From Thunnus maccoyii (lineage: Eukaryota > Chordata > Actinopteri > Scombriformes > Scombridae), in NCBI RefSeq assembly GCF_910596095.1, contig NC_056540.1:19184501-19248500 (forward strand): a stretch of 64,000 nucleotides of DNA, read 5' to 3'. Shown here one piece after another: positions 4,101 through 60,218 of this stretch. The position numbers and the translations under genes were made by a program. The number at the start of each line of letters is the position of its first letter. Within the stretch, counting starts at the first letter, position 1. The notes under the pieces are model-generated. The model searched no databases. It was not told where the DNA came from and was given only the letters and a program-made list of their open reading frames with translations.

Positions 4101-7100
4101 ATGGAAGTACGGACGTTTGATCTACAGGGCAGAGAAAAAGAGATCAAATGTGTTTCTAAGGTAACAAGTGATGAAAGTGCGTAACATGTATTTTAAAAAA
4201 TGTAAATAAAAAAAGACAACAGGATATTTACAAGATAAACAAAAGTACAATTATTAATAGTTTGCTGTAAGACTGAAAAAAGAAACTTTATTTAACTAGA
4301 AAGAACATTAAGCATTAATACTATTTTTTGGACTTCAGCACAAAGGCAGAAATATTAAGACTTTGGGTTTTGTTTTTCAGAAAGGTCCATATATTTAATC
4401 ACAATGCTTTTTTTTATTATGGAGTGTTTTTGTATTTAGGCAAAGTTCTTGTACAGCTCCTTGTTTTAGACAACATTTAACATTTGAGTTTGGCTTCTTT
4501 TGCCGACCGAAAGAAGGTTCGTTATAAAAACAAGTTTATGTTCCTCAGAGTACAGTAAGTATCATTTTGGTATCAGACAATCCACAACTCAACTCAAATA
4601 TCATATCAGCAAAAGTACGTAACAATTTCCTGCCTTCAATTCAGAACAAATTGCCCTGAAAATCACTTTGTGAATGACAGAGGTGGAGAGAAAGTGCAAG
4701 AGGATGAGAGAAATTAAAAAATTAATTTGAAAAAGGAGGTTAGAAGACAGAAGAAAACAAAGGAACTCACAGCATCTTCAAAGTGCCATCTCTTGCGGAC
4801 TTCTCCTTCGTTATCCTGGTAAACTTTGTCCCTGTTAACCAACACCTGATCTCTTATCTTCTGCATCAGTTCCTCCTACACACAAAAAGAACAGAACGAT
4901 GATCACTTATTAAACCATTTGCTTAATTTATGTATTTTTAATTCATTCATTTTTAAAACTCCTCTTCCAGGGTTGAGTGTGAGGCAGTCAAGTGTTACTA
5001 ACTGTGTCTGTTCCCTCGGGTGTGGCGGGTTCTTCCTCCCCAGGCGGCCTCTCTGCCTCCTCCTCCTGGGCCTGTTCAGCACGCTCCGCCTTCTGGCTCT
5101 GACGGCACAACGTCCTCAGCTCCTCGTACTCCTCCGAGGAAAGCACTTCTTTGGGTTCATGGCTGCTCAGGTGGGCCTTGAACCTGACGGAGGTCAGGAG
5201 GAGGAAGTGGTGAGACGTAACGAAAGATGAATGAGAGAAGAACAATTCTCATTACAGATAATTATGCTTTTACGTTAATATTTTGACATTTAGATTGAGA
5301 ACTACTCATCGGTGTGTGTTAGGTCTTACTTGTCGTAGTGGGTGTTGTACATCTGGGTGGGGACTTTGAGGACTCTGTCCAGGACGGTGGTAGCGTTCTT
5401 CATGTTCCCCTGCTCCTTCTCCCACTCAACGTACAGATCCCAGAGCCGGTCTGAGTGGAAGTCCAGACCTGCTGCTGCCACCGCATCCTCAAACACACTG
5501 AGGGTTGAAGTTGGAGATCAGTGAAACAAGAAAACAGCCGACACAATCAACAGCTTATGTCCCCTTGCAGCACATTACAACAACTTCTAGATCCATAAGA
5601 GCTAAAAGTCTCTGTTGTGTATGTGTGTAAATGTGTTTGGCTACCTGCGAATCCGTGCAGGCGACTCAGGCAGGTTCATGTCCAGCGTTCCCAGCAGCAG
5701 ATTGATGTAGTGGATCCACAGATCTACACTCAAAGGGATCGCCTGGAGGCCCTGAACACACACCTAACACAGAACACCTGATCAATCAACTTGAGTCCAT
5801 TAAAACAAGTGAAAAACATCCTTAATAGAGCTAAAATTATAAAACACATATGACCTAGTGTTTAAATCTGTGCACCTGATTACTTTGTTAGCCAGCAACT
5901 GCTTTGTCATGTTACTCTAAGACATATTTGGTATAACAATAATTAATTGTAAACTAATAAATAAATTTTTATTTACATTACATTTGTTTGTATTGTAAGT
6001 TTTAAGGAGAAGTCTTTGTATAAGCTTTTAGCTTCTTACCTCTCCTGCACAAGTGTTTGTTCACTTTGAGTTCATGTATAGCTGAGTAAATGTAGTTAAA
6101 AGTGTGTTTTTATAATATGAATGACCTTTTGTACAAAACAAATCATCATTTTTCTACAATAAGAATATTCGTTTTTTTAAAGTGCAAATAAATAAATAAA
6201 ACTCAAAGTAAAATTACAATTACTGAATATCATAATGAATATCATATTTTTTTACAATTACAGTTTAATTACATTACAAATTCATTGGCATCTTTTAGAA
6301 AAGCAGTGAATTAACACTGTTTTAATGATGCAGTAATGAAAAGTCATTAGTTCAAACACAGAATTGAGAAATCTCTCCTGTTTTACCTCCTCTGCTTTGT
6401 TGTTGTATCCAGCGCGGCGCTCCAAGTCAGCAAATTTCTTCCAGTAGCCGTAGCAGAGCGGGTAGCGGGCGAGGAAGGCCTCCAGTGCTCTGCGTGATGC
6501 TGTGATGTGACCCTGGGCAGATGAGAGAAAAATGACATCACATGAGGCTACAGCAAGCTTCCTGATCTAACAGGTTTTGTGGCCTCTTGGGGCTGCTACA
6601 AGACAGTATTTCCAAGTTTGAGGAGAAAAGAGCGCCTGTCCTATCAAACTCTGTCTGCTCCCTCAAAACAACAACAACACACCTCTTGTTCGCAGTATTG
6701 TAAAAGATCTGTCCAGCTGGTGAAGTCTTGAGGATTGTCGTGTGCAGCCTTCCACAGACGCTCAAAATCTGTAGGTAGTTCCCCCTCCTCATCCTCTGTA
6801 GCCGGAGGCAGAGAGAAGGGAGCAGGGTCGGGGTCCAGAGGGGCCTCAGTGGCTATGGCGGCGCTGCCGTTCTCTTCTGACATCTCAGCCATCTCAATCG
6901 GAGGCGGTGCTGGGACTTCAGCAGCCTCCATCGCTACAGAGGGAGTAGATTACAAGTCAATGGATCAGACAATCTCTGTTAATATACTGTAACTGAAGGA
7001 CTTTATACAGGAAATCTCTCCTTTACTCTCCCTTTGGAATATATTTCTACCAGAGTGGCCTGACAATCCTCGTTAGTTATACAGGAAATCTCATTAAGAT

Positions 7101-18200: not shown

Positions 18201-21200
18201 GGCCACCATCTATTATACAAGAGACAAAAAAAAATCTAACTGAAAATCAAAGAAAGACACACTTTTTCCAAAAGGTGCCTGCACGTTATTTACTTTTCTG
18301 AGATTTCAGAGCGGTTGAGAGTGAAAGCAGAAAAAGAAATAAAACAAAAACACTGGACAACTTCTGGCAAGAACACTTATGAAAATGAAGATCCTGACTT
18401 GTCTTGTATCTGTACCTTGCGTTTCTTGTCCTGGAGACCCTGCAGCATTTCCTTGGGTGTGGCAAACTTGTGTGGATCCCAGGTGAAGTAGCGCTTCCCA
18501 TCTGTGTGCTCGATATCAAGCCAGATGAAGTCATAGGGGATGTCGTGCTTGTCAAAGCCCGCGTCCACCGACTGCACGTCTTCCTGGTCATTGTAGTTCC
18601 AGCGACACTGGTGGTAGGCCAGGGCGGACAAGGGAGGGAAGGCCTGGGTGCCTAAAGAACAAAACAATATTCAGTGTGAGGAAAACAGCTGGATGTTAAG
18701 TGCCAGTAACATTTATCTTTGGGGGATAAGGGTGAATTATTCTGGTGACAGACTCGTTAAGAACGCTGAGCCAATGCTTCAGAGTTTAATTCGTTGAAGA
18801 TCTTCTGTAAATTCAATTCTGTTCATAATTAATTAAATTTGATTTAAGTGGCTGAGCAAGTTTTCAATTAATGAATTAATTATGTCTTTTCATTATGTGT
18901 CACGGTTCTTGAATCTGTAAACTAAACATAATTAAGCGATTGATTTAACCAAAAAAAAAAGTGTCAAAATGTCTCCAGTATTAGTGTCAATTAGTGCTTA
19001 TTTTATTTGTTTAGCACTATTAGCTCATTGCCCATGAAAAGCTGACAAAAACTGTGTATTTCATGAGAAAGAAGAGTTCATGTGAATAGCCAGTCATCCA
19101 TCTTCTTACCTGTAAGGGAGGCATACTGGGAGAAGACGTCTTTTGGTCTTGGTCCGAGCATAATGAAGACGTCGATGATGCCGCTCTCAGAGATCCAACG
19201 AACGTCTGTCTGTGGCGTCTCACTGGAGCCCTGCACATAATCCAGCATTTTCCCAAACACGGTCTAGACAGAGAGAAACGAGTGAGTGAAGGACTGAACA
19301 TGACCTGTTTAACCCGTCTGTGATTCTCAAATCAAAAATTAAAACTGGAATCTGGTTTCTGCAGTTAAAAATGCAGGTAAAGACTCTCAGCTACTGCTAC
19401 ATACCTTTCCAGCTGTGTTGGAGCTGATGTCCACCCAAGTCTCAGCAGCATTGAGCCAGAAGATGCCTGTGGTCCGCTGGGCATTGTGGGCTAACATAAC
19501 TGGGACGGCGCCGTAAAGGGCCATAGGGTTATACAGCTCATACTGGAACACATCCAGGTTATAGAGCCGATACGGATCTCCATTACTGAAACACAAAAAC
19601 ACAGACACAGGCTTTATCCAATGCAGTGAAGACTACACTGACAATCGTGCATGTACCACAATGTTCCAGGACTCCATGTGAATTCAAATCCATTTTGTAT
19701 GTGAAACGTGACTTCTTGTTGCTACTCACTCTGTTGTTTTGAGTCTAAGGGTGTCTGCATGTTCTGGGATGCCGTAGACGTGCTCCACACCCGGCAATGA
19801 AAAGTCTAAACTGACAGCAGATGGACCTGTGGGGTGAGAACAACCAATAATCAGTTAGAGGAGGGAAAGTAAACAGAAAGTCAAATGGATGAAGGAATTT
19901 TTACGCAATGAGGTTTCTACATTAGTCATTCAGTTAATCTAAAAAAACATCTTGTCACCACTTACATGCAAGACTTTGCATCTTATTTCTGCAATGACGT
20001 CAACACCCCGCTCGCAAACACATGCAGATATTCTGATAAGTGTTGGAGCTAAAATTAGCTGTGACTGAAATATATAAGCACTTTAAGGGGAACGGCAGGG
20101 AAAAAGCTAGAGGATTTACCATTAGGTTTGCTGTCTGTGTGCGATTTAAATGTTTCCTCCCACATCCCATCTTCCACTTTCTCTTCCTCTTCTTTGGCTG
20201 CCTGGCAGGCAAACAAAAAGAGCAGTAACATAATGAAAAAGGAGATCTAGGCTGAAATACAGTGCAGAAATTATTGTTAAAAATAAAAAAATTTTAAAAA
20301 AGAAGGAAGAAGAGGGATAGAAAATGTGTATTTTAGTGTGTAGTACCTCGGCCTGGTTAGCCGGATCAGCCTCCTCTTTCTTCTCGGCCTCTGGGTCTGC
20401 CTGACTGCTGCGTGGCACAAAAAGAGGGAGGGAGGAGTGAGGGAGGGGATGTGGCAAAAAAGAGAAATGTGTCACTTCGACAAAGTCATTCTGTCGAGTG
20501 ATGAATAAAGATAAGTATATGGAGGTATAATTAAACTATAATAAAAGGAGGAGGACATACAAACAGGGAGGTTGGTGATTGCCTCCTGACTCAACACTGA
20601 CAACTAACAAGTACACTACTAGGTTTGACATGACCTAACTAATGACAAAGGGGACTGAGCAACTCCCTACCTTGTGGCTATTTCGAGCAAGGCATTATGG
20701 GACAGGATCTCTAGAGGTTGCAGCATGTAACACCCACAAGGCTCCTAACAGAACCAACTAGTACCCAGGTGGATCAACAATATAACAGGGTATGATCGAG
20801 GCCATGGCGCTGCACCACAGACCCCCCCCCCCCCCTCACACAAGCCTGGAACTGTTACAGACTTTTGGTCGCCACACACAGCTGTGGAGGTGCATGATCT
20901 GCAGTAGTGCACATGCAAGAGACACTGATGTCCAAAGTTTGTTTTTAAAGCTTCTTAGAGCTCAAGAGAAAAACTGAACTCTTCCAGTTTTAAGGAATTC
21001 TTATACCTAAAACTAAAATACGAACTGAAGCATAACCACAAAGAGAGATGTTGCTGCTGGGTTAACTTGAAAATAAGACACAGACTATATGGTGGGAAAC
21101 AGACTATGTGTGTGTGCAAGACAGAAAAGCGTCGCTCTGCGTTCCCAACTGGAGCACATCTGGCTCTGGCAGTTTTTTTGCCAGCTATCGCAGTTAGCTC

Positions 21201-27789: not shown

Positions 27790-30700
27790 TCAGAGCTGGA
27801 ACCGCCAGCAGAGGTGTCCCAGTCTGTCAATGTTTTTATGCAGAACACTGTGAATCGGCGCCACATATCTTGCCACGTCACCGTCCCGAGAGAAATCCCT
27901 GCAGAAAAAGCCCTTCTCTGAGCTGAAGACAAACTTCTGGGGCATGGGCCCGTTGCCCCTCACGTACTCCCACACAGCCAGGAGCAGCAGCCTCACCTCG
28001 AAGGGTGCGAGGAGGGGGAAGGCTTCGTGGACATTGGCCAGCACAGGAGGCAGGAGCTGGCCCTCTCCCATGCAGGACACCAGGAGGCAGGAGGCCTGAA
28101 GGTGCCACGGAGAGTCTGTGGACAAAGCCTCACGGGACGCCTCCCAGTGGGCCAGCAGAGTGGCCAGGAGGCCTCTGAGCACAGCTGAGCAGTAGCAGAG
28201 AGCCGGGCGTCCAGCTGCCACCACCTGAAGCAGAGCGAAGAGCACCGGGTGGGCCTCAAAGCTCCGCCGAATGTGGATGTCTCGCTCCACGGTGGTGCGG
28301 GCATGTTCTTCCGGGGGCCAGGACAGCTCCCCGTTAGCCACGTCTGGACACACATTTTCCACCAGAGTGACTGCAATTACTTTGGCTGCCTCGGCGTTGA
28401 TGGGCGGCGGCTCATCAGGGTCCGATGGTGGTCGTGAGCCGTTGATGGAGCCGTTGAGACCAGAGGAGCTGCAACACTGGACTATGACAGCCAGCAGAGT
28501 CTGGGTATTCTACAGAGAGAAGAAAATGATGCAGCAACATGAGCAATAGCAGACATTTTGGCTAGTGCGTAGGTAAATAGCTAAAATGGTAAAAAAATTA
28601 AGCGCAAATTCATTGAAAAGACAGTTGACATTTCATGACCTATAGTATATATTGGAAACTGCAGCTTCAACTACAGTGCTGTTATTTAATCTGATAAGAC
28701 ATACTGCCTGAATTACAAATCTACAATTCTCCAACTCACTTGGATGATCCCAGATGGGTCAGGTAGAGGTGTGTCAGTCCGGATCTTCAGCCCCTTGCCA
28801 ATCACCCCGGCATGAAACACTGACCACACGCTGCCAGAAAAGTTAACGGTTGTACCAAACCGACAGTTGATATCCAGCAGGGAGGCTCCGAGGTCAGGGG
28901 ACACAGATGGAGCGGCCACGGGAGCACCAGACATGTCTGCGGTCTGCCCTCCAAACAGGTCAGCGTTGCCTTTATGCAGCGATCCCTCAACCAGCTGCTG
29001 AAGCACCGCCTTGAGAGTGAGAGGAGAGTATGCAGCAAATCGGGAGAGGAGCAGGACCGAACAGTTCACCGCTTCGGCTGCCTGTCCTCCATCTCTCCCC
29101 ACCTTCCCCCCTTCTCCTCTCCTCCGCAGGGCCAGAAAGAAATGAGTGACAGCAGCACGGGAGAGCAGGAGCAGGTGTGCCGAGGAGGAGGTGCGAGGGA
29201 GTGGGCTGACTGACAAGAGACGCACTGCTGCATGAGATACAGCCGGGTCACCGTGGAGAAGGAGTGGGCCAAAATCATGGAGGTGTCCTGAGACTGCTGA
29301 GCCCACCTGAACAGCCATGGTGGACTGAGCGCCCGGTGCTCCTCTTCTCTCCTCATCCTGACTCTGGATGGCTGCAGCCAGGTTGAGCAGCAGCTGCCTC
29401 AGCTGCCGGGGTCCCAGCGTGTGCGTATGGATCTGCGCCACACAGCGGGCTACAGCGGCAGGAATGAGTCCCGCCATGCAGGAGGAGAGCGTGGTGTGGA
29501 GCTGCCAGGCCAGAGCCAACTCCTCTGGGTTTCGTGCCTGGGTGAGTAGCTGACAGAGGGCCTCGGTCGCCACACTGGGGCCTCCATACACCGACAGCAG
29601 GCAGAGCAACTGATGCAGCCAGAGGTGACGCTTTCTCTCCAGCCTCAGTGTCTCGGCACACAGCTCACCTACGTGTGTCTGCAGCTCCTCCAGGAAGGGG
29701 ATGACTGTCTGGGGCTGAGAGGAAGCAGAGTGATGGGGACTGCCTTCCACTCCATCAGAGCGGTTGTAAACCAGTTTATGAAGATGGAGAAGCAGCATCT
29801 GAAGGAGGCGGTCGCAACCCTCTCTGACACCTTCATGAGGGGAGGGTGTAGGGCCGGAGATGATGACTGAGGCTGGGGTAGCCGTGTCTGCCAGAAAGCG
29901 GAGAACCCGGGCCCCTCCCGATGGGTTCTGGCTAATAAGGTGGACTGCCAGTCCCAGCATGTTATCCAGTTCTTCTCTGGGAAGCCCCTGCAGCAAAGCC
30001 TGCAGCTGGAGCAGGACAGGGGGGCGCAGCAGCTCTACCAGCTCTGCAGAAACAGCACCAAAGAGGTTGGGGGACATTGCAGCCAGCTGGAGCAGAAACG
30101 GTACAGCAGCTCGACGGAGTTGAGGGGAACTCTCCCAGGAAGTTGAGGATGAAGTGGGAGATAGAGGGCTGGAGGGGCTCAGGCTCTCCTGGAACATCCT
30201 GAGCAGCTCCTTCCGGATGCTGTCAGAGTGGTGTGCTGCAAGGTGTCCAAGGATTCCCACCACTGAGCCGATCTTTGGTACTCTGCTGCCTTTTTCAACT
30301 CCCATCACGACTATTCCTTGGTCCTTGGCACCATGGGAGCAGAAGTCCTTGAGTCCACAGGCCAGAACTCGGCTGATGATAGTCCCTGGGAAGGCGGAGC
30401 CGATGTGAGCCACCACCCAGTCAAAATGTGGGGAATGCTGAACTGAGGTATCTAACAGCGCGTCCACACAGGCATCAGGGCACCAGGCCAGCATGGCAGC
30501 CAAACACTGAGAGTAGGCCTCCATGAGGGAGCGGGTGGCAGTGCAGGACATCCAGAGCTGGAGCAGCTCGTTGAGGCTGGAGGAGTGGGGGGCCACCCTG
30601 CGGCCCGCATGCTTGCTACTCAGCTGGCCCAGTAAGTCCACAGCCCAGGCAGACACCAGGGGGGCCCAGGCCCGCGGGTTGAGGCGGATGAACTCTGACA

Positions 30701-32583
30701 GCACGCCATGAACCTCCTAAAGACAAACAGAAATAATTAAGATGATTTTCAGGGGAGTTTCCTGACCACAAGATTTTTATGAATGCAATGATACATTTGA
30801 ATTGGGCTGGATCAGGATCTGTTTCTGTTGTGGGCCTGTAAACTGGTTTAGAAAAGAAACTCAAATGGAAACTGAAAGTTTTGAGTTAAGCTGCAAAATA
30901 CTAATCAATGAAGATTTAAGAAAACAACCTGTAATGTTCTGATCTTCATTAACCCTGCAATATTTTTATCACTTCATGATATTCAAGATATCGGTTATGC
31001 AATAATAAGTTATTTGTGTGGCCTTGTGTCAACTCACCTGTATGATATCCTCCAGGTTGGAGCTGACCCCAGAGTTGGCATCGCCCTCCGTCTCCAGGTT
31101 GTGCAGGAAGGCAGATACGTGCTCATCATAGACGCCCCTCAGATGCTCCAGCACTGCTCCCCTACAGGCTGGGACCGAGCGCAGCAGACGCACAGCACAG
31201 CGAGCGTGTTCCCGCACGCTGAGCTTCCGGCCCTGAACGGTGTCGACTCCACTGATGAAGGACTTGATCTCCTGAGACAGCTCCTGGCCACTGGAGGAGA
31301 GTGGACAGGAGGAAAGGTTTGGGAAAGTAGAAAATTAGTCAATTGACAGGAAATTATTCCTCAACAACTCTGATAATCAATTAATTGTTTACATCATTTA
31401 TGAGGCTAAAATGATTTCCGCTATTTTCCAATATCTTATCCATGTCTTCAAGTTGCTTGTTTGGTTCATCCAACAGTCAAAAACCAAAGATATTCAGTTT
31501 ACTATCATATAAGACAAAGAAACGCAGTAAATATAAAAAGATAGAACCAGAGAAAGGTTGGCATTTGTGCTTGAAAAGTTTATTTGCAACTTTTTGATTA
31601 TCAAAATAGTTGCAGATTCATGCTGTGTTGAAAGACTAATCAATAAATAACCTAAATGTTTTAGCTCTACGTCACATTAACCAATTTCTGTTGCAGCTTA
31701 AACAATTAGTTGATCAATTGATTAGACTGACAGATGATTAATCAGCAACTATTTAAATAACTGAATAGTTGTTTGTTTGAAAAAGTCATTTTTAAAGCAA
31801 AAATACCCACATGGGGTTTAGGAAATTGTGAAAAATTGTGACTTTTCAGTATTGTCTGACATTCTGTAGCCCCAATCCATTGACCTATTGATTGAGAAAA
31901 TAATTAGGAGATCAATCAATAATGAAAAGTTGCAGCCCTAAGTCAATTTACTACCACATAGGGAAAAGAAATGCACAAAATACTCACAATTGGAAAGCTG
32001 AAATCAAAGTATATTTGATATTTTGGGCTTGAAAAATTATCTCAAATGAATCAATTATCAAAATAGCTGACTTTCTGTCCACCGACGAATCAATTGATTG
32101 TTTAATGGTGTCAGCTATAAATTGATTAATCACCTAATTATATCAGCACTAATAAAAAACAACACCAAACAGTTGTTGGGTAAAAAATACTGAATTACTT
32201 GCAGCTACTTTGGGTGTTAGTCAGAGTAAATAAATACTGTAAAACAACATTTTGATATTTAACTCTTTCCAGATTACATGAATAGTCGATTAACTGAAAA
32301 AGTGCTCAGTAAAGCCCTGACGTCTATTGTTAAAACAATAAGTTTCAACAGTATCTGGCTGTGTTGAGCAGTAAAGTAACATATAAACGTCTATATGTGA
32401 TTAAGACATATTCTGCTGTGTACAGTTCACTAAAATACAAAGTATAAGACATATGCTAGACTGACTCTATAGTCTAAATGTACTTGTTCCGTCTCTCTGC
32501 TCTCACCTCAGGGCAGTCTGCGGTGTGTGAGTGTGTGAGCTCTGCATCGCTTTCAGCGGACTCCCGTCAAACACCACAGACAT
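27790..32583 (-). CDS. ints5: Integrator complex subunit 5
   Basis: Four exons join in frame, about 1008 aa: 32507-32583, 31038-31290, 28740-30716 (1977 bp) and 27790-28509. Conserved stretches include [163 protein letters not shown] and [13 protein letters not shown]-like [14 protein letters not shown]. Family knowledge: INTS5 is a helical scaffold subunit of the nuclear Integrator complex, which cleaves nascent U snRNA and enhancer RNA and terminates paused RNA polymerase II. Length is close to the human protein (about 1019 aa). The chosen ATG (32581-32583) gives [20 protein letters not shown]; the N-terminus is variable in the family, so this start is inferred. The gene is GC-rich compared with its surroundings. 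Confidence 0.96.
31291..32506 (-). other. ints5 intron 1 with decayed dispersed repeats
   Basis: Several segments such as GATTAATCAGCAACTATTT, TCAATTGATTAGACTGACAG and GAAAAGTTGCAGCCCTAA recur in diverged form through the intron. A related end (AGTTGCAGCCCTAAAT) occurs near 22383. These resemble a widespread teleost MITE with GGGCTGCAACTA-type ends. No coding exon is apparent. Confidence 0.45.
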
Positions 32584-38927: not shown

Positions 38928-41900
38928 ATGGCCCCAACGCTGGTAATAAAATTATCTCTAGATCAGAGTATATGATAACACGTGGTTCTGGTTTTTCTTG
39001 TGCTGATATGGTGTTCTATTATAGCCCTTATGAGTCATTCATTTTAATAGCATGAGACCAACGAACTATGTCATTAAATAGTTAAATCTTTCTTTTTTTT
39101 AACCCAGATTGTGTCAGAGAGTTCAGTCAGGTCAAAGTTAGGTCAAGTTGTTGCCAAACACTGTCTGTTGCAAAGTGAAGCATTTTTTTTTCTGTGTCTT
39201 CTGATCCAAGTATGATGTGAAGCCGGAGCCTGGGGACTTGATTGAAGTGTTCCGTGGTACCTATCAACACTGGGCTCTGTACATTGGAGATGGCTTCGTT
39301 GTTCACTTGGCACCACCCTGTGAGTCCCCCCCCCCCCCCCCCCCCCCCCGACACACAGCTGTCTGAACTGCTGCACCCAAATACTGACCAGCCCCAGTCT
39401 GGAGCACAAAGCACCCTTATCTGCTAGCACACATTCAGTGTGATGGGTAGTTTTTCCATCCAGAATACCAACTTAGATGATGTGTTTGGTTAAACTGATC
39501 CATGACTCATAAACCGTTAATAAAAAAAACAATATCTGGTGCATAAGTCCTGTACAAATTATCTCTGTTTCTCTCTCTTTCATCACACATTTGTCCTTAG
39601 CTGAGGTCCCGAATGCAGGCGCCAACAGTATGATGTCTGTCCTAACTGAGAAGGCCGTGGTGAAGAAAGAGGGGCTGTGGGACGTGGTGGGAACCGACAA
39701 GTGGGAAGTCAACAACAGTCTGGACAAGAAATACCAGCCCCGCGAAGTTCACATCATTGTTAGGGACGCTCGTATGCTGGTGGGCCGTGAGCTGTCGTAC
39801 TGCGTCATCAGAGGAAACTGTGAGCACTTTGTCAACGAGCTGCGCTACGGCAAGGCCGAGTCCCGGCAGGTAGGTAGACACGGATTAACAAAGAACTTTA
39901 TTAGGAACACCTGTGTAGTCTAAAGCCTCTTTCACACATAGTTCCTGTGAAATTACTGGGATAATCTTTCAGGCACCGCTATGATTTTCACTATTCACAC
40001 ATGCAGCTACATTCAGGAACATTTCCGTCTTGCGCCTTTTCACACATGCCATCGCAATGATGGAATAGATTGGCAAGGGACAGTCCAGAAGATGGCTGTA
40101 ATGCAACACTTATGGATGCCAACCGTCATAAAACTCAACAGAAGAAAAGAGCGAAAACCACATAACTCAGATCAAACTTTCAAAGTCGGCAGTCCTGATC
40201 AAATATGAATCAAAATTATGTTACTGCAATGCCTGTTTCTCACCTCTAATGTTTTCAGAAACATATTTTTGTGTACTGTTTAGCCGTAATATGAGAAAGT
40301 TTGTGATGTAGCAGCCATGTTGGAAACAAACAAGCCAAAACTAAGCACCACGGGACTCACAGTACGTCACCCACATGTCAAGTCTTGTGATTAGTTCGCT
40401 CGCTTCACATGACAGCGTCTTTTGTCAGATGGACGTAACTATTTACCTGCTTGTCCCTGCAATGTTACTGCTTTCATTTGCAACACAGATGTACCAACAT
40501 TTTCCCTGAAATGTTACTTGGTCTTGAGATGGGAAACTGGCGCTACAGATTTCCCTGAATATCCATCTCTGCTCCCATTCACACATGACCCCATGCAGGA
40601 AATGTTCCTGAACATTTCAGGGATATACTGCATGTGTGAAAGGGGTTTAATGCAATCCAACACAACAGCTCTGCCATAAATTCTACTTTTATGAAGCTTA
40701 TATAAAAGTGTTCGTAATATTTTGTCCAACCCATTGATATACATGAGGGGGGCTAAATATTAGGAACGCTTTTCAATATAATACACTCCAGTACACCTGC
40801 ACACACTACAACCTCAATAATAAATACAAAGCAGAATTATCACCTTTCTGACAACGTCAACAAAAACTGAAAATTTATAAGCTTCATAAAAGTAGAATTT
40901 ATGGCAGAGCTGTTGTATTGGATCGCATTAGATTGCACAAGTGTTCCTAATAAAGTGCTGTGTGAGTGTAGACAGAGTACTTTATTGATCCCAAAGGGAA
41001 ATTACAGTGTTACAGCAGCCACTTAAATTACATATACAATACACATTAAATTAACTCAAATATAAAAATAATTGAATAAATAAAAATAGGATAGAGATTA
41101 GAGATATAACCATAACTAGAATATGCTAGTTGTTGAATATACACTGTTCGTCGATATTAATATGCTGTAATACACATTATACACATTAATGCAAGTCAAG
41201 TGGGTAAAAGTGGAAACATGTTGATCTTTTACCAACAGCATTCAAAAAAATTTTTTACTGGAAAGAATTGAAAAACAGAAAAAGCTGCTAAACGAATGTC
41301 ACAATGTCATCACAGCATTAACAGAAACAATATGAAGGAGAATAATTCCCAAATAGAAATGTAGCAACTTGGGACAATAAAAGAGGGGACAGGAAGTTTA
41401 TGAGGGACCAGACCATCAAAAGCAGAATCTGTCTTTTGAGTATAAAACACTAACTGTCTATGTGTTTGCAAGGTGGCTGTTTTCATCTTTGACAGAGCCA
41501 CGACAAAACTATTAAAGGGGACATATTCTGCACATCTCCAGGTTTTTTTTTTTTTTTAATCTGGGGCTCTACTGGAATATCTTTGCATGATTTACAGTTA
41601 AAACTCTGTCATAACTCGTCTCCAAGGCCATGACAAATGTGGGAATGGACACAACGGATGGCAGTAAATTAAAGATATTTATTATAATAAAGCAAACGAC
41701 TGAAGAAATAATTGCAAATATGGAGTGTGTCAGTCAGTAACATCAGTAATGTAGGTGTGAATGTGTGAACAATGAAGTGTAAGGTGTAGTGGAGTAAAAA
41801 CAAAACTAGAATCAAATGAAAAACAAAAGCCTGTGGCTGCTGGTTGGGATGAGTCAAGGTGAGAGAGAGAGCTCAAACAATGCTGGGAGTTGGCCTTTTA

Positions 41901-42979
41901 TGCTATGGCGGCATTAGGCTCAGGTGCTCCACACCCACATTCTCCCAGATACCTTTATAGACACAAGAATATAACAATAACTCATTACCACACCAGTATC
42001 AATACACTTTCGGTAGGTTAGAGCCGTCACAACTCCTTATTTATCTTATACTGACCCTCTACGCAGCTCCTCAGTTCAGCCTCTGTCTGAAACAGGCCGT
42101 TTTAGCTCCTGTGTCTTTAAGCCCACTCTGTTCTGATTGGCCAGCTCAGGGGGCCACATAAACAAACTAAAGTAGTAAGAGTTCACTACCTTTTCTCGTT
42201 CTTGACTCGAAATATAAACTTCTCAAATACATTGAACATGTTTGAGCGGAATCCGATCCGAAATATGAGAGCAGACAACGCAAACAACTCATGGAAAAAC
42301 CTTAGCAACAACCTTGGCAACAAAGGCTACATGGACATTTATGGGCATGCATGACAAGTCGACGTCACCACATGGTAGAAAAAAATAGTCATAAACGAAG
42401 CGTTCAGAGCAGGTTGAAGCCCTGGCTTTGACCTCCACATATTTTAACATCAAGTTTAGGAGCTGTGACCATGTTTAACGTAGATATCCGACATCATAAC
42501 AGTATATAAATCACAGGAAACCGCTAAAAGTATAATTTGTCCCCTTTAAGTTAAATGTCACTTAAAACTGATTATAATAGTGACTTGTTTTCATGCTGGG
42601 GAAGTTATAAAAAGAATATAAAAACCTATCAAATCACTCCTGCAATATAATTCACATTTCTGCTGTCTGCCTGTTATAAGAAAAAGAAAAAAACGGAATG
42701 GTACAAATTTCTAAAAATAAGCTCAAAATGTTTTATGAAGTTAGTGTCATATTTGCCAGAGATGAGGATGATTTTAAGGGGGTTTTGAATGTGAAGAAGA
42801 CTCATGACACTCCCTGTTTTCTAATTGTTTTTTCTAACTGTGATCTCCCTCTGCAGGTGCGTAAGGCAGGAGAAACGGTCATGGCCGCAGGTTTGGCTGC
42901 AATGGTGGGTATTGGCATCGTGGCTCTAGCAGGCACTCTGTTTGGAAGCAGCAAAAAAGAAAAAGAGGACACACAGTGA
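38928..42979 (+). CDS. plaat3: Phospholipase A and acyltransferase (PLAAT/HRASLS family), PLAAT3-like
   Basis: Four coding exons, 38928-38942, 39211-39319, 39601-39869 and 42857-42979, join in phase to about 171 aa. The protein starts [19 protein letters not shown]. It contains the LRAT/NlpC-P60 catalytic triad: His25 in [11 protein letters not shown], His37 in VVHLAPP, and Cys115 in [14 protein letters not shown] hydrophobic C-terminal anchor (about residues 139-160, [15 protein letters not shown]) ends in a charged [10 protein letters not shown] tail. Family knowledge: these thiol enzymes release fatty acids from phospholipids and transfer them to lipids such as phosphatidylethanolamine; PLAAT3 acts on organelle membranes and is involved in lens organelle loss. 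Resemblance to mammalian PLAAT3 is strong ([22 protein letters not shown]-terminal anchor), but one-to-one orthology with PLAAT2-5 cannot be settled by eye. The 15-bp first coding exon and its CCAAG acceptor are the least certain part. Confidence 0.93.
39326..39349. repeat. Poly-C run in PLAAT intron
   Basis: Twenty-four consecutive C directly after the splice donor of exon 39211-39319 (GTGAGTC). Such a run is G-quadruplex prone on the minus strand. Confidence 0.95.
39896..40955. mobile_element. hAT-like MITE (outer element of a nested pair)
   Basis: The ends are inverted: CTTTATTAGGAACAC at 39896-39910 and GTGTTCCTAATAAAG at 40941-40955. The inner arms also pair: ACAGCTCTGCCATAAATTCT at about 40667 with AGAATTTATGGCAGAGCTGT at about 40892. 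The left arm is interrupted by another element at 39924-40645. The family resembles a common teleost repeat; clear target-site duplication was not found. Confidence 0.8.
39924..40645. mobile_element. MITE nested inside the 39896-40955 element
   Basis: The left end AGCCTCTTTCACACATAGTT and the right end ACTGCATGTGTGAAAGGGG are inverted. Removing it restores the left arm of the outer element (..GTC TAA / TAATGCAATCC). The flanks TCTAA and TTTAA suggest a short target duplication. Internal sequence includes paired TTCAGGAACATTT / GTTCCTGAACATTTCAGGG text. No transposase. Confidence 0.75.
40970..41110 (+). mobile_element. LINE 3'-tail-like fragment
   Basis: AGAGTACTTTATTGATCCCA, then AAGGGAAATTACAGTGTTAC and AGCAGCC, is a familiar teleost retrotransposon tail. 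No coding content. It abuts the hAT-like MITE in the last PLAAT intron. Confidence 0.55.
41512..42549. mobile_element. TTAA-flanked MITE with AGGGGACA ends
   Basis: TTAA at 41512 is followed by AGGGGACATATTCTGC; at the right, AATTTGTCCCCT is followed by TTAA at 42546-42549. The ends are inverted and the TTAA duplication points to a piggyBac- or Kolobok-type insertion. The middle (about 41636-42030) looks unlike the rest and may be a second insertion; its own boundaries were not resolved. No transposase. Confidence 0.75.

Positions 42980-43311: not shown

Positions 43312-43381
<70 letters not shown>
43312..43381. repeat. (TA)n microsatellite
   Basis: About 70 bp of uninterrupted TA dinucleotides shortly after the PLAAT polyadenylation signals. 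Confidence 0.98.
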
Positions 43382-51429: not shown

Positions 51430-51659
51430 GTGCAAAAAAAGAGTAACTAATGTTTACGTCATCAGCAACAAATGAGTCATTACAAGTTTTTAGCCCCTAA
51501 GACGCTGGTTCTGAGTTAAACAGGAACATCTCTTCAAGAAAGTGGTCAGTAAATCAATTCATAGATTATTATGAATTAATGATTAGCTAATGATTCATTA
51601 TTCCAAAATCTCTGAGTCCAGCACCATATTGTAAAGTGTTACGATAAATCTGCATTATT

Positions 51660-54600
51660 AAGTTTTCATGTATTCTACTAGCAATACCTAACTTAGCTTA
51701 CCTAACTCAATTATATAAAGGTTACTGTTCAGTGACTTCAGCACATTCATTAAAGAGATTTATGATTTTTCCATCATAACAATAAATGCAATAACAAATT
51801 CCTGCAAATTCTTGAGATCTTGAAAGTTTTTAAAATCCCCACATTTCCATTAAAAAAATGGTGAAAACTGGAATTAAAAATCATCACAATGTTCAACACA
51901 TGAATAATCCTGGTCAGAATAACATGTATGAGCAAAAGTTCAATAAAAATCAATATCCAAAGAATAAACCTCCTTGTAACTACGATCAATCAACTTTGCT
52001 TCTGTAGAAATTGTCTTCTCAGGCAGTGAATCACTCAGGTTACGTATCACTGCAATCAAACGTCCCCAAGTGACTGTTTTTATAAAGTTACCACAACTGG
52101 ATCATCTCTAAATCTAATGATTTAGTTTATAGATCTTGTTGGCAATGCTACACAGCGTGTTACGAAGCACAAAGGTTATCTAATAGATTCATACAGAAAT
52201 GCCTATGAATAGGCCATTGAGATCCCTGAGAGATTCTCAACAAATTTTGACTCTAATTGGACCTTATTAAACAGTATCATCATTGGTAAGTTCTTTAAAT
52301 AGATGCATTTTTTGCGGATGACTTAAAATGTTTCTATGTTCTTTTTGAGAATGATAATACGATACCTGCAGACGTCCATATTCTTTAATTGTGGAGGTCT
52401 GCAAATTTGAAACATTGCGGTCTTCAACTGCATTGGTTGCTCGTGGCTTGTTGGTCTCTGCTAAACCTGACTTAATCACTTCCACTTTGGCCTCCTTCAA
52501 TAACATAATGACAACCAGAAAGAAGATGCATTTTTAAAAGACAAGAAAAACGTGAAGGAAAGTAGAAAACAACACACATGCTGTACAATTTTAAGAAAGA
52601 AACATCTTGTGCAGCTTTTCCTACTTTCTTCTTCTACAGTGGCTGTATTGTGTGCTGTTGTAGATTTATCCACAGCTCCCACTACAGTTTCAGACAACAA
52701 TAGCAACTCCTGCACAACTTGCACTATTATGTATGAAAGAAAATGGTGCTGATAGTGCGCACACAGCCACAGAGAACATGCTGAGCTCTTAAGTGAATGA
52801 GTTTAAATCAGTTAGTCACACAAAAATTAATATTGTCTTACTGTGGACACAGTCCTGCTCTTGACATGTAAAAAAAGATTAAAAAAAGAACCTACTCGTA
52901 TTGAACGAAGACTCCAGAGAGAAGGACCTTGGTCCGGTTATTTTCAGTGTGGCGGTTCTTCAGAAAGAAGCACAAAATCAAATTGAGATGATGTTCACTG
53001 TATTCATAATGTATTGTAACGTTCCCAAGTGACCGTTTTTATAAAGTTACCACAACTAGATCATCTCTAACTCTAATGATTTAGTTTATAGATCTTTTGG
53101 CAATGCTACACAACATGTTACAAAGCACAACGGTTATCTAATAGATTCATACAGAAATGCCTATGAACAGGCCTTTGAGATCCCTGAGAGATTCTCAACA
53201 AAATTTAACTCAAATGGGACCTTATTAAACAGTATCATCATTGGTTAGTTCTTTAAAAAGATGCATTTCTTGCAGATTACTTGCTATTTTTCTTACTTCT
53301 TTTTGCAGAATGCTACAACTGTCATTTTGTAGCGAGTGAATGAGTTTAAATCAGTTAATCACACAAAAATGAATATTGTCTGACTGTAGACACAGTCCTG
53401 CTCTTGCCACATAAAAATTTAAAAAAGAACCTACTGGTGAAGGAGGAGGAGTTTCCTCAAGCTGCTCCGATGGGACAGTTTCAGGTCGACGAGCCTTCAG
53501 AAAGAAGCACAAAATTAAAATCAGATGATGTTCACTGTATTCATATTGTTAAATGTACATAAGCTGCAAACAATGTGTTCTTGTATAATGGAAGTGAGTG
53601 CAGCATATTGTGAAAGATGTATTTAGTACTTTTTAAGGGCAAGTGCTATCAATATGTGTGTGAACACAGTTGATGACTCAGCAGACTGAGTTTTCATGCA
53701 GACTACTAGTAACACCTAACTTATCAATTACATAAAGGTTATTGTTCAGCGACTTCAGCACATTCATTAAAGAGATTTATGATCTTTCATCACAACAATG
53801 AATGTAATAACTAATTTCTGTAAAATCATGAGATATTGAAAGTTTTTAAAATCCTCACATTTCCATTAAAAAAATGGTGAAAACTGGAATTAAAAATCAT
53901 CACAATGTTCAACACATGAATAATCCTGGTCAGAATAACATGCATGAGCAAAAGTTAAATAAAAATCAATATCCAAAGAATAAACCTCCTTGTAACTACG
54001 ATCAATCAACTTTGCTTCTGTAGAAATTGTCTTCTCAGGCAGTGAATCACTCAGGTTACGTATCACTGCAATCAAACGTCCCCAAGTGACTGTTTTTATA
54101 AAGTTACCACAACTGGATCATCTCTAACTCTAATGATTTAGTTTATAGATCTTTTGGCAATGCTACACAGCGTGTTACGAAGCACAAAGGTTATCTAATA
54201 GATTCATACAGAAATGCCTATGAACAGGCCATTGAGATCCCTGAGAGATTCTCAACAAATTTTGACTCTAATTGGACCTTATTAAACAGTATCATCATTG
54301 GTAAGTTCTTTAGATAGATGCATTTTTTGCAGAAGGCTACAACTGTCATTTTGGTCAGTAATGATAATAAAACTGGAGATCCTGGAGAGACGAACCAATG
54401 AACTTCCCATTATTAAACATCACACAGTCTGAAAAAGGGAGGAAGGAAAAAGCTGAGAAGCTTTAGTATCAACTTCTCACTTAGAAATACTGCAAAATAC
54501 TGACTGGGATATGAATGAAATGAAAGTCAACAGAAATACTTGTTGTAGAAAGTTTGAATATTCATCAAAATACCAATTTTACTGATAAAACATGTGACAT

Positions 54601-57600
54601 GTAAACAATGTGATTCTGCTTCACACAGACCCAACTGTCAACATATTCATGAAGTTTAATGACATATTTGGAAAGTTATTAGTTAATTATAGTAAATTGA
54701 ATTAGTAAATAATAAATAGTAAATTTGTAATTTATATTGTACACAAAAGGAGCAGCCCCTTGTGTGTCTCTTGAAATTTGAAACATTGCAGTCTTCAACT
54801 GCAATGATTGCTCGCGGCTTGTTGGTCTCTGCTAAACCTGACTTAATCACTTCCAGTTTGGCCTCCTTCAATAACATAATGACAACCAGGAAGAAGATGC
54901 ATTTTTAAAAGACAAGAAGAACGTGAAGGAAAGTAGAAAACAACACACATGCTGTACAATTTTAAGAAAGAAACATCTTGTGCAGCTTTTCCTACTTTCT
55001 TCTTCTACAGTGGCCGTATTGTGTGCTGTTGTAGATGTATCCACAGCTCCCACTACAGTTTCAGACAACAATAGCAACTCCTGCACAACTTGCACTATTA
55101 TGTATGAAAGAAAATGGTGCTGATAGTGCGCACAGCCACAGAGAACATGCTGAGCTCTTAAGTGAATGAGTTTAAATCAGTTAGTCACACAAAAATGAAT
55201 ATTGTCTGACTGTAGACACAGTCCTGCTCTTGCCACATAAAAATTTAAAAAAGAACCTACTGGTGAAGGAGGAGGAGTTTCCTCAAGCTGCTCGGATGGG
55301 ACATTTTCAGGTCGACGAGCCTTCAGAAAGAAACACAAAATTAAAATCAGATGATGTTCACTGTATTCATATTGTTAAATGTACATAAGCTGCAAACAAT
55401 GTGTTCTTGTATAATGGAAGTGAGTACAGCATATTGTGAAAGATGTATTTAGTACTTTTTAAGAGCAAATGCTATCAATATGTGTGTGAACACAGTTGAT
55501 GACTCAGCATACTGAGTTTTCATGTAAACTACTAGTAATACCTAACTTATCAATTACATAAAGGTTACTGTTCAGCGACTTCAGCACATTCATTAAAGAG
55601 ATTTATGATCTTTCATCACAACAATGAATGTAATAACTAATTTCTGCAAAATCATGAGATCTTGAAAGTTTTTAAAATCCCCACATTTCCATTAAAAAAT
55701 GGTGAAAACTGGAATTAAAAATCATCACAATGTTCAACACATGAATAATCCTGGTCAGAATAACATGTATGAGCAAAAGTTCAATAAAAATCAATATCCA
55801 AAGAATAAACCTCCTTGTAACTACGATCAATCAACTTTGCTTCTGTAGAAATTGTCTTCTCAGGCAGTGAATCACTCAGGTTACGTATCACTGCAATCAA
55901 ACGTCCCCAAGTGACTGTTTTTATAAAGTTACCACAACTGGATCATCTCTAACTCTAATGATTTAGTTTATAGATCTTTTGGCAATGCTACACAGCGTGT
56001 TACGAAGCACAAAGGTTATCTAATAGATTCATACAGAAATGCCTATGAACAGGCCATTGAGATCCCTGAGAGATTCTCAACAAATTTTGACTCTAATTGG
56101 ACCTTATTAAACAGTATCATCATTGGTAAGTTCTTTAGATAGATGCATTTTTTGCAGAAGGCTACAACTGTCATTTTGGTCAGTAATGATAATAAAACTG
56201 GAGATCCTGGAGAGACGAACCAATGAACTTCCCATTATTAAACATCACACAGTCTGAAAAAGGGAGGAAGGAAAAAGCTGAGAAGCTTTAGTATCAACTT
56301 CTCACTTAGAAATACTGCAAAATACTGACTGAGATATGAATGAAATGAAAGTCAACAGAAATACTTGTTGTAGAAAGTTTGAACATTCATCAAAATACCA
56401 ATTTTACTGATAAAACATGTGACATGTAAACAATGTGATTCTGCTTCACACAGACCCAACTGTCAACATATTCATGAAGTTTAATGACATATTTGGAAAG
56501 TTATTAGTTATGTATAGTAAATTAAATTAGTAAATAATAAATAGTAAATTTGTAATTTATATTGTACACAAAAGGAGCAGCCCCTTGTGTTGTTTTAGGC
56601 ACAGATGAAAGACGATCCAGGAAGGCTGGTTTTAGTAACAGATACATGAGTTTGGAGACTAATCAGACCATAAGGCACGTCACAATGGTTCATAGTGTTA
56701 TGAAGCAGGATTCTACAATTGTAGAAAATTATCACAGCAGCTATTGTTTCATCTTTTATCATGATGACTGTGAGTTAAACAGTAGAGAAATGGCGTTTTC
56801 ATCATGAAGCAATCTTCCAGGAATGTATGTTTGCATGTGTTTGACTGGCCAGTCCAGCCTCTTGCCAGATGATGATGTGTTGCTGCAGACCTCCATATTC
56901 TTTAATTGTGGAGGTCTGCAGATCCTGTTGATGTCTCTTGAAATTTGAAACATTGCGGTCTTCAACTGCATTGATTGCTCGCGGCTTGTGGGCCTCTGCT
57001 TAACCTGACTTAATCACTTCCAGTTTGGCCTCCTTCAATAACATAATGACAACCAGAAAGAAGATGCATTTTTAAGAGACAAGAAGAACGTGAAGGAAAG
57101 TAGAAAACAACACACGTGCTGTACAATTTTAAGAAAGAAACATCTTGTGCAGCTTTTCCTACTTTCTTCTTCTACAGTGGCTGTATTGTGTGCTGTTGTA
57201 GATGTATCCACAGCTCCCACCACAGTTTCAGACAACAATAGCACCTCCTGCACAACTTGTACTACTATGTATGAAAGAAAATGGTGCTGATAGTGCGCAC
57301 AGCCACAGAGAACATGCTGAGCTCTTAAGTGAATGAGTTTAAATCAGTTAGTCATGCAAAAATGAATATTGTCTGACTGTGGACACAGTCCTGCTCTTGC
57401 CACATAAAAAATTAGAAAAGAACCTACTGGTGAAGGAGGAGGAGTTTCCTCAATCTGCTCGGATGGGACATTTTCAGGTCGACGAGCCTTCAGAAAGAAG
57501 CACAAAATTAAAATCAGATGATGTTCACTGTATTCATATTGTTAAATGTACATAAGCTGCAAACAATGTGTTCTTGTATAATGGAAGTGAGTACAGCATA

Positions 57601-59105
57601 TTGTGAAAGATGTATTTAGCACTTTTTGAGGGCAAGTGCTATCAATATGTGTGTGAACACAGTTGATGACTCAGCAGACTGAGTTTTCATGTAGACTACT
57701 AGTAATACCTAACTTATCAATTATATAAAGGTTACTGTTCAGCGACTTCAGCACATTCATTAAAGAGATTTATGATCTTTCATCACAACAATGAATGTAA
57801 TAACTAATTTCTGCAAAATCATGAGATCTTGAAAGTTTTTAAAATCCCCACATTTCCATTAAAAAATGGTGAAAACTGGAATTAAAAATCATCACAATGT
57901 TCAACATATGAATAATCCTGGTCAGAATAACATGTATGAGCAAAAGTTAAATAAAAATCAATATCCAAAGAATAAACCTCCTTGTAACTACAATGAATCA
58001 ACTTTGCTTCTGTAGAAATTGTCTTCTCAGGCAGTGAATCACTCAGGTTACGTATCACTGCAATCAAACGTCCCCAAGTGACCGTTTTTATAAAGTTACC
58101 ACAACTGGATGATCTCTAAATCTAATGATTTAGTTTATAGATCTTTTGGCAATGCTACACAGCGTGTTACGAAGCACGAAGGTTATCTAATAGATTCATA
58201 CAGAAATGCCTATGAATAGGCCATTGAGATCCCTGAGAGATTCTCAACAAATTTTGACTCTAATTGGACCTTATTAAACAGTATCATCATTGGTAAGTTC
58301 TTTAGATAGATGCATTTTTTGCAGAAGGCTACAACTGTCATTTTGGTCAGTAATGATAATAAAACTGGAGATCCTGGAGAGACGAACCAATGAACTTCCC
58401 ATTATTAAACATCACACAGTCTGAAAAAGGGAGGAAGGAAAAAGCTGAGAAGCTTTAGTATCAACTTCTCACTTAGAAATACTGCAAAATACTGACTGAG
58501 ATATGAATGAAATGAAAGTCAACAGAAATACTTGTTGTAGAAAGTTTGAATATTCATCAAAATACCAATTTTACCGATAAAACATGTGACATGTAGACAA
58601 TGTGATTCTGCTTCACACAGACCCAACTGTCAACATATTCATGTCCTCCAAAGGATGAATCACGTTCCCAAAGGAACCTGTGATTCTATACTGGAGCCTT
58701 CTGCGTTGGCACAATCATTGAGCCAACACAGCTGTCCCATTCAGATGAATGATGTGGTGCATCTTTTTACACAGTGCTGTTTTCTGTCTGAACACACTCT
58801 AAAGCTTGCAGCATAGTTCTTGCACTGGGCTCAACACAAAGAGGCACAAAATCTGCAGACCTCCATAATCATTTGATGTCTCTTGAAATTTGAAACATTG
58901 CAGGCTTCAGCTGCGTCAATTGCTCGCAGCTTGATGGTCTCTGGTAGACCTGACCTAATCAATTCCAGTTTGGCCTCCTTCAATAACATATAATGACAAC
59001 CAGAAATAAGACATATATTCTACAGTGGCCCAATTGTGTGCTGTTGTAGATGTATCCATGGCTCCCACTACAGTTTCAGACAACAATATAAACTCCTGCA
59101 CAACT
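51660..59105 (-). repeat. Tandem array of four ~1.8-2.2 kb units
   Basis: A landmark (TGAATAATCCTGGTCAG) starts at 51901, 53917, 55742 and 57909, so spacing is 2016, 1825 and 2167 bp. Unit segments on the minus strand: X 59024-59095, 57176-57247, 55009-55080, 52638-52709. Y ends at 58976, 57032, 54865, 52494. Z 57978-58057, 55811-55890, 53986-54065, 51970-52049. W 57428-57487, 55261-55320, 53435-53494. Homology covers the presumed introns as well as the exon-like parts and is very high by eye, implying recent duplication. A partial extra block at about 52780-53340 carries part of the Z flank and a diverged W-like segment (52896-52957). Confidence 0.9.
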
Positions 59106-60218
59106 TGCACTAATATGTATGAAACAAATGGTGCTGATAGTGCACACAGTCGCAGAGTAGGAATATTCACTCCTATCATTCCTGTCTAATGGTACAGTGT
59201 GTGTATATTAGTATCTTTTGTGACCTTGTAATGTGGTTTGTTTTTAGACTCATGATCTGTGGCCTGACCAAACCAAACAGAGTAGCAATGTCATGAAAGT
59301 AAACTCACCCTGTACATGATCTGTGTCAGTGTCTTCCTGGACTGTTTGAATAACTTTTCAAGGGAAATCAAATCCTTGTGGTGGGTTTGGAGTCTGTCTT
59401 CAATGTGCCTCTTGAAATTTAGGGTTCGGTTAAAGCTTCTCCACTGATTATTAAGAAAATCAAAGCCAAGGTCTTCAGGTGTTGATGAGATGTTGGGACA
59501 AGACTTGAAACGCCACGGCCGTCTTGCTCTCACCTAAATTTAACAGGAAGAAGAGGGAAATTATGAGGCTCTGAAGATCTGTCAGTAGATATCTCTTTGT
59601 TTTAAGACATGACTGGCTACAATTCAGCAAACATCTACATAATTAAATTGATTGTAACGTTACAACTTAGAAAAAACCATTAGACACAAGCGCTAGAAAA
59701 AAAGATTAGGATGACAGATTATATACTTGGGTTTTTTCCTTCAAAATATCCTCAAAAATAAGGTGAATCATACAAATTATAGTATGATGAACAGAAAATA
59801 TGAATTATATTATAATAAATGACAGTGTTAACATGCATGAAGTTTTTAAGTAAACAAACAAACAAAAAAAAAACAGAATAAGAATACAATCATTTTTACC
59901 GGGTGCCGTGTTGAGATACTAGGCATCATTCTCCTTGGGAATTCTTCCATTGACCTTCCTGTCAGGGTTTCGAAGGCGGTTCTCAACCTTGTTTGAAAGT
60001 TTTCCAAGCGTTCACGTAGTTCTTCAACATTTCTGAAACACTGTGACCTGCTGTTCCTCATTTCTAAAATATCTATCTTTGTTCTTTGAATGTTTTCTTC
60101 CAGCACAAGAGACTGTTCCTCTAGCTCCAACAATCCCTACAAAATAAATGACAAAATACGCGTTTAGTCTTCGCACCACAGAACAACACACAACCATTTT
60201 CTGATTGAACGCCTCCAT
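51970..60218 (-). CDS. Candidate gene or pseudogene of unknown family with tandemly repeated exons
   Basis: Two non-repeated exon-like segments open the minus-strand reading. 59900-60136 (79 codons, acceptor TTTTGTAG) is coiled-coil-like, with text ELEEQSLVLEENIQRTKI and EELRERLENFQTRLRTAF. 59309-59533 (75 codons, donor GTGAGTTT) continues in the same phase with FKRHIEDRLQTHHKDLISLE. Four recurring short segments follow: X (ELLLLSETVVGAVD), Y (EAKVEVIKSGLAETNK), Z (NLSDSLPEKTISTEAKL) and W (ARRPETVPSEQLEETPPPSP). A possible start ATG lies at 60216-60218 (MEAFNQKM), but it would need a weak donor and an intron of about 70 bp. I do not recognise the family. Y in unit 2 has an in-frame stop, the X-Y gap in unit 1 is 47 bp, and the phase at Y-to-Z is unresolved. 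It may be a decaying gene or a multi-exon gene using only some units. Confidence 0.35.

Follow-up and report, generated by a model that had tools for sequence, protein, structure and literature searches.

Direct repeats, arranged head-to-tail on the minus strand, occupy 51.64–58.64 kb of a 64 kb stretch of Thunnus maccoyii DNA (contig NC_056540.1, positions 19,184,501 to 19,248,500; this whole stretch is termed the window). The repeated units carry a short exon-like segment, termed W, and in one unit the W copy (W1) has been rewritten between conserved introns. Together with two longer open segments that adjoin the array (A and B), the repeats may belong to a minus-strand fish protein-coding gene, with a helical head encoded by A and B, a series of tandem W exons, and the rewritten W1 as the last exon. 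This gene model is favoured here, but only tentatively. The features are listed in Table 1; splice sites were scored with textbook base frequencies.

Of the 60 bases of W1 aligned with W4, 31 are different, and there is in addition a 2-nucleotide (nt) change in length, whereas in the remainder of the aligned W-to-Y block only 28 of 579 bases differ (Fisher p = 3e-20). The differences extend from the first base of the exon to the last but one. Intron sequence that flanks W1 is kept, with 21 identical bases directly before the exon and about 12 after it. The most divergent block of the alignment, 52939–52900, is wholly within W1, and its divergence score was reached by none of 1000 permutations, both in the comparison with unit 4 and in that with unit 3. 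The limits of the W1 exon were defined by splice score and not by divergence. Traces of homology remain in the first 30 nt of W1 (0.0005 by shuffling); beyond these, no trace was detected (0.61 by shuffling).

Neutral decay of W1 is rejected, because a dead exon is expected to drift by about 5% as its surroundings have done, and the excess over this is about tenfold. Positive selection by point mutation alone is disfavoured, since synonymous change in the first 10 codons (3.5/7.3) is as high as nonsynonymous change (9.5/22.7), although these numbers are small. Replacement of a block appears to fit the pattern better than piled-up point changes, with the same small numbers.

Joining A, B, W4, W3, W2 and W1 (237+225+60+60+60+66 nt) yields a single open frame, with introns of 366–2107 nt. 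W2, W3 and W4 are phase-symmetric (60 nt, 0-0), so that the frame is preserved however many copies are added, deleted or skipped; W1 is not symmetric, as it measures 62 nt to its donor-like site. Within positions 54765–56932, W3 is the sole phase 0-0 candidate of 40–400 nt that has an acceptor of at least 8.5 and a donor of at least 5 bits, thresholds that were chosen after W had already been seen. At least one candidate of this quality was present in 5 of 200 dinucleotide shuffles of the same region. The W copies make up three of the seven stretches with a GC content of at least 0.53; 0.9% of 60-nt intervals in 51600–59300 reach this value. A pattern search with W-type DNA gave 0 matches in viral contigs, a collection poorly suited to a fish gene. 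A possible TRAF6-like PxExxE pattern is present in W (PSEQLE in W2 and W3, PSEQIE in W4), and it is too short to be given weight.

Table 1. Candidate exons, repeat units and partial copies (positions within the window; aa, amino acids).
Feature	Position	Strand	Description
Exon A	59900..60136	-	237 nt, phase 0-0, 79 aa; acceptor 8.4, donor 5.0 bits
Exon B	59309..59533	-	225 nt, phase 0-0, 75 aa; acceptor 3.3 (weak), donor 10.8 bits (strong)
Exon W4	57428..57487	-	60 nt, phase 0-0, ARRPENVPSEQIEETPPPSP; acceptor 8.9, donor 5.2 bits
Exon W3	55261..55320	-	60 nt, phase 0-0, ARRPENVPSEQLEETPPPSP; acceptor 9.0, donor 5.2 bits
Exon W2	53435..53494	-	60 nt, phase 0-0, ARRPETVPSEQLEETPPPSP; acceptor 8.9, donor 5.2 bits
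Exon W1	52892..52957	-	rewritten copy, read as last coding exon, NRHTENNRTKVLLSGVFVQYE and stop TAG; acceptor 7.2, donor-like site 5.2 bits
Unit 4	56593..58643	-	97.7% to unit 3, 97.6% to unit 2
Unit 3	54765..56590	-	98.4% to unit 2, 97.7% to unit 4
Unit 2	53335..54765	-	carries X2 and W2; without Z and Y
Unit 1	51643..53012	-	contains W1
Partial X copy (X1p)	53018..53315	-	90–94% to X segments
Partial Z-Y copy adjoining head	58850..59157	-	81–91% to other copies

Units 2, 3 and 4 are 97.6%–98.4% identical to each other over 1317–1712 nt. The identity of unit 1 to the other units is 93.6%–94.0% in the X block and 86.9%–90.4% in the Y-to-W block. Judged by this divergence, unit 1 is older than units 2–4, and the Z-Y copy that adjoins the head is still older. 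Several copies of the exon-bearing block thus lie head-to-tail on the same strand, as in tandem exon amplification. A reading of the DNA made from its letters alone (the sequence-only reading) had described a repeated-exon locus of four near-identical units, each with the same four segments X, Y, Z and W. The tandem minus-strand repeats and the near identity of units 2–4 agree with that description; the uniform content does not hold for unit 2, and near identity does not extend to unit 1. Copies were sought within the window, where the units gave no further matches at E 1e-4. The spacers at 56593–56882 and 58644–58850 showed no further copy of note, a segment termed V (in unit 4) no other match of note, and RNA families 0 matches at gathering thresholds.

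The two head exons had been described as in-phase and of coiled-coil character. Both are indeed phase 0-0, and AlphaFold 2 single-sequence models give one long helix for each: residues 2–59 for the product of exon A, with a mean predicted local distance difference test score (pLDDT) of 89.8, and residues 19–73 for that of exon B, with a mean pLDDT of 84.0 and about 97 over most of the helix. The head modelled in this way is probably helical and a coiled coil. The translated sequence had not been assigned to any family. Eight protein queries, taken from both the head and the repeat region, gave no Pfam match at cutoff. A pattern search for relatives of A and B gave no match in viral contigs, and in genome contigs 29 stretches matched the pattern with 0 confirmed, both collections being poorly suited to a fish gene. 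A homology of exon B to Y, proposed from a common NFKRH stretch (tblastn E 4.2), was rejected on a shuffle test, in which the scores of exon B against four unit pieces were equalled by 6, 37, 93 and 130 of 200 shuffles. For exon A against unit pieces the lowest count was 8 of 200.

All of X, Y, Z and W were exons of a repeating four-exon module in the sequence-only reading. Open stretches are present in X, Y and Z of several copies, and phase 0 is kept where Z is entered after CAG and Y after AAG. However, no splice pair (acceptor above 3, donor above 4 bits) brackets the X or Y stretches in any unit, the Y acceptor scores only 2.3–2.4 bits, and Y4 has an in-frame TAA stop. The Y5 copy compared with other Y copies shows proportions of nonsynonymous (pN) and synonymous (pS) differences of 0.13–0.17 and 0.09–0.18, respectively. 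The identity of X (0 of 88 differences in three pairs) is not confined to X and continues into the flanking DNA. Other candidates in these blocks are a 66–67 nt segment, entered in phase 2, which four units have downstream of the X stretch, and a 33 nt segment in the Y block (phase 0-0, Y1 only). Amplification in blocks is supported for W and not for X or Y as exons, and the four-exon module is highly improbable. X and Y appear to be intron sequence that was carried along, and Z is probably the same. A tail of repeated W-Z exon pairs, with X and Y as intron, is quite unlikely; phase 0-0 exon candidates for Z are found in units 1, 3 and 4, and these also weigh against the favoured gene model. 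So do the weak acceptor of exon B, the open 5′ end of the model, a possible phase 2 continuation beyond W1, the changes among W2–W4, which are too few to reveal selection, and a codon-score test on A, B and W that was uninformative, its training set being small and GC-rich.

It is also conceivable, if rather unlikely, that A and B come from a real gene but the repeats are non-coding DNA multiplied in tandem, the exon-like look of W being fortuitous. Units 2–4 are as identical in introns as in W, shuffled units yield candidates of W quality as given above, and an AATAAA was not found near W1. Such an origin leaves unexplained why W1 alone was rewritten, within exon limits found from splice scores, and why phase 0-0 is common to W2–W4, A and B. 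The three near-identical units could in part be an assembly artefact (falsely duplicated haplotypes), as their divergence of 1.6%–2.4% over long blocks falls within the heterozygosity range of some fish; this carries a low probability. That the unit is a known transposable element is very unlikely. Fish genomes are repeat-rich, but the copies here are head-to-tail with none elsewhere in the window, the Pfam searches gave no match at cutoff, and the three inverted pairs that were found all involve one short palindrome near Y and not unit ends. No transposase or reverse transcriptase domain was found in the pieces tried, and no inverted arms at the unit ends; elements that are decayed or non-autonomous would be missed by such a search.

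This palindrome is found at two Y copies (52366–52403 and 56884–56921), with arms CTGCAGACCTCCA or near it, and the older Y copy (58849–58869) holds a single arm. Opposite Z, a plus-strand open reading frame of 82 codons is open in three copies (54875–55123, 57042–57290 and 52504–52752); the one copy tested has no Pfam match. Upstream of X, units 4 (58420 and 58373), 3 (56253 and 56206) and 2 (54428 and 54381) all keep a pair of acceptor-like sites that score very high, at 12.5 and 10.9 bits. No donor yields an open internal exon with them, and only terminal readings with entry phase 1 or 2 are obtained.

Elsewhere in the window, a long minus-strand open reading frame of 667 aa (28713–30716) displays the INTS5 N- and C-terminal domains (Pfam), and two minus-strand pieces tested from 2904–6949 match PRP39 HAT or TPR repeats, probably from a PRPF39 gene. 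An exon of glycosyl hydrolase family 31 is at 18377–18670, probably from GANAB or a relative. The region 39513–42979 begins with an LRAT-domain exon (39513–39923, Pfam 4.4e-22); a later plus-strand open reading frame, 42680–42979, has no Pfam match and is suggestive of a PLAAT/HRASLS membrane tail. A perfect AT dinucleotide array of 35 copies is at 43312–43381.

Single-exon amplification in a fish gene, and radical change of an exon with conserved introns, are each already known from published accounts. In teleost piccolo b (pclob), a synaptic gene, a zinc-finger exon is amplified 8 to 16 times, for which unequal crossovers are proposed (Nonet 2012, PMC3484663). As in pclob, a single exon appears to have been amplified within one fish gene, with gain or loss of entire copies; here, however, it is a 60-nt exon of unassigned function in a block of about 2 kb that includes introns, with no relative found in the collections searched. 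In accelerated segment switch in exons (ASSET), described in snake venom protein families (Doley et al. 2008, PMC2474615; 2009, PMC2711939), exons change radically to unrelated sequence while introns remain highly similar, as is seen for W1. By the authors' account, all segment changes but one are located inside exons rather than at the exon-intron boundary, and no mechanism weighed is satisfactory (PMC2711939). In contrast, the W1 change spans the exon between both splice sites, and the switch is among copies of one array resembling one gene, not among venom family members. Mutually exclusive homologous tandem exons likewise lie within one gene as possible alternatives; their key residues are reported to be conserved and their changes mostly conservative (Martinez-Gomez et al. 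2022, PMC9741552), whereas W1 retains few W residues.

Under the favoured gene model, unequal crossing-over between blocks of about 2 kb would have multiplied the symmetric exon W, and near-identical introns may have promoted further exchange between blocks. Each W copy would add 20 residues with the frame kept. In one copy, W1, a different exon body would have been taken up or have evolved while both splice sites stayed the same; W1 would have become the last coding exon, and the protein would end with a new 21-residue tail. If the gene is expressed and spliced in this manner, the head may oligomerise, and the Pro/Glu-rich W repeats may act as a flexible, multivalent tail to which a partner binds.

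It is unlikely that the locus represents a fast-evolving fish gene, not described before, whose array exchanges single exons as whole pieces from one splice site to the other, with introns kept homogeneous. If true, this would be a built-in tail-switching system of a multivalent helical protein, like the segment switching of venom genes but between the exon copies of one gene. The rewriting of exons between near-identical introns is unexplained, and this compact array, in which three copies are near-identical and a fourth is switched, is a place to test it. Comparison of the array in related fish could separate conversion from a paralogue, selection, or some other process.
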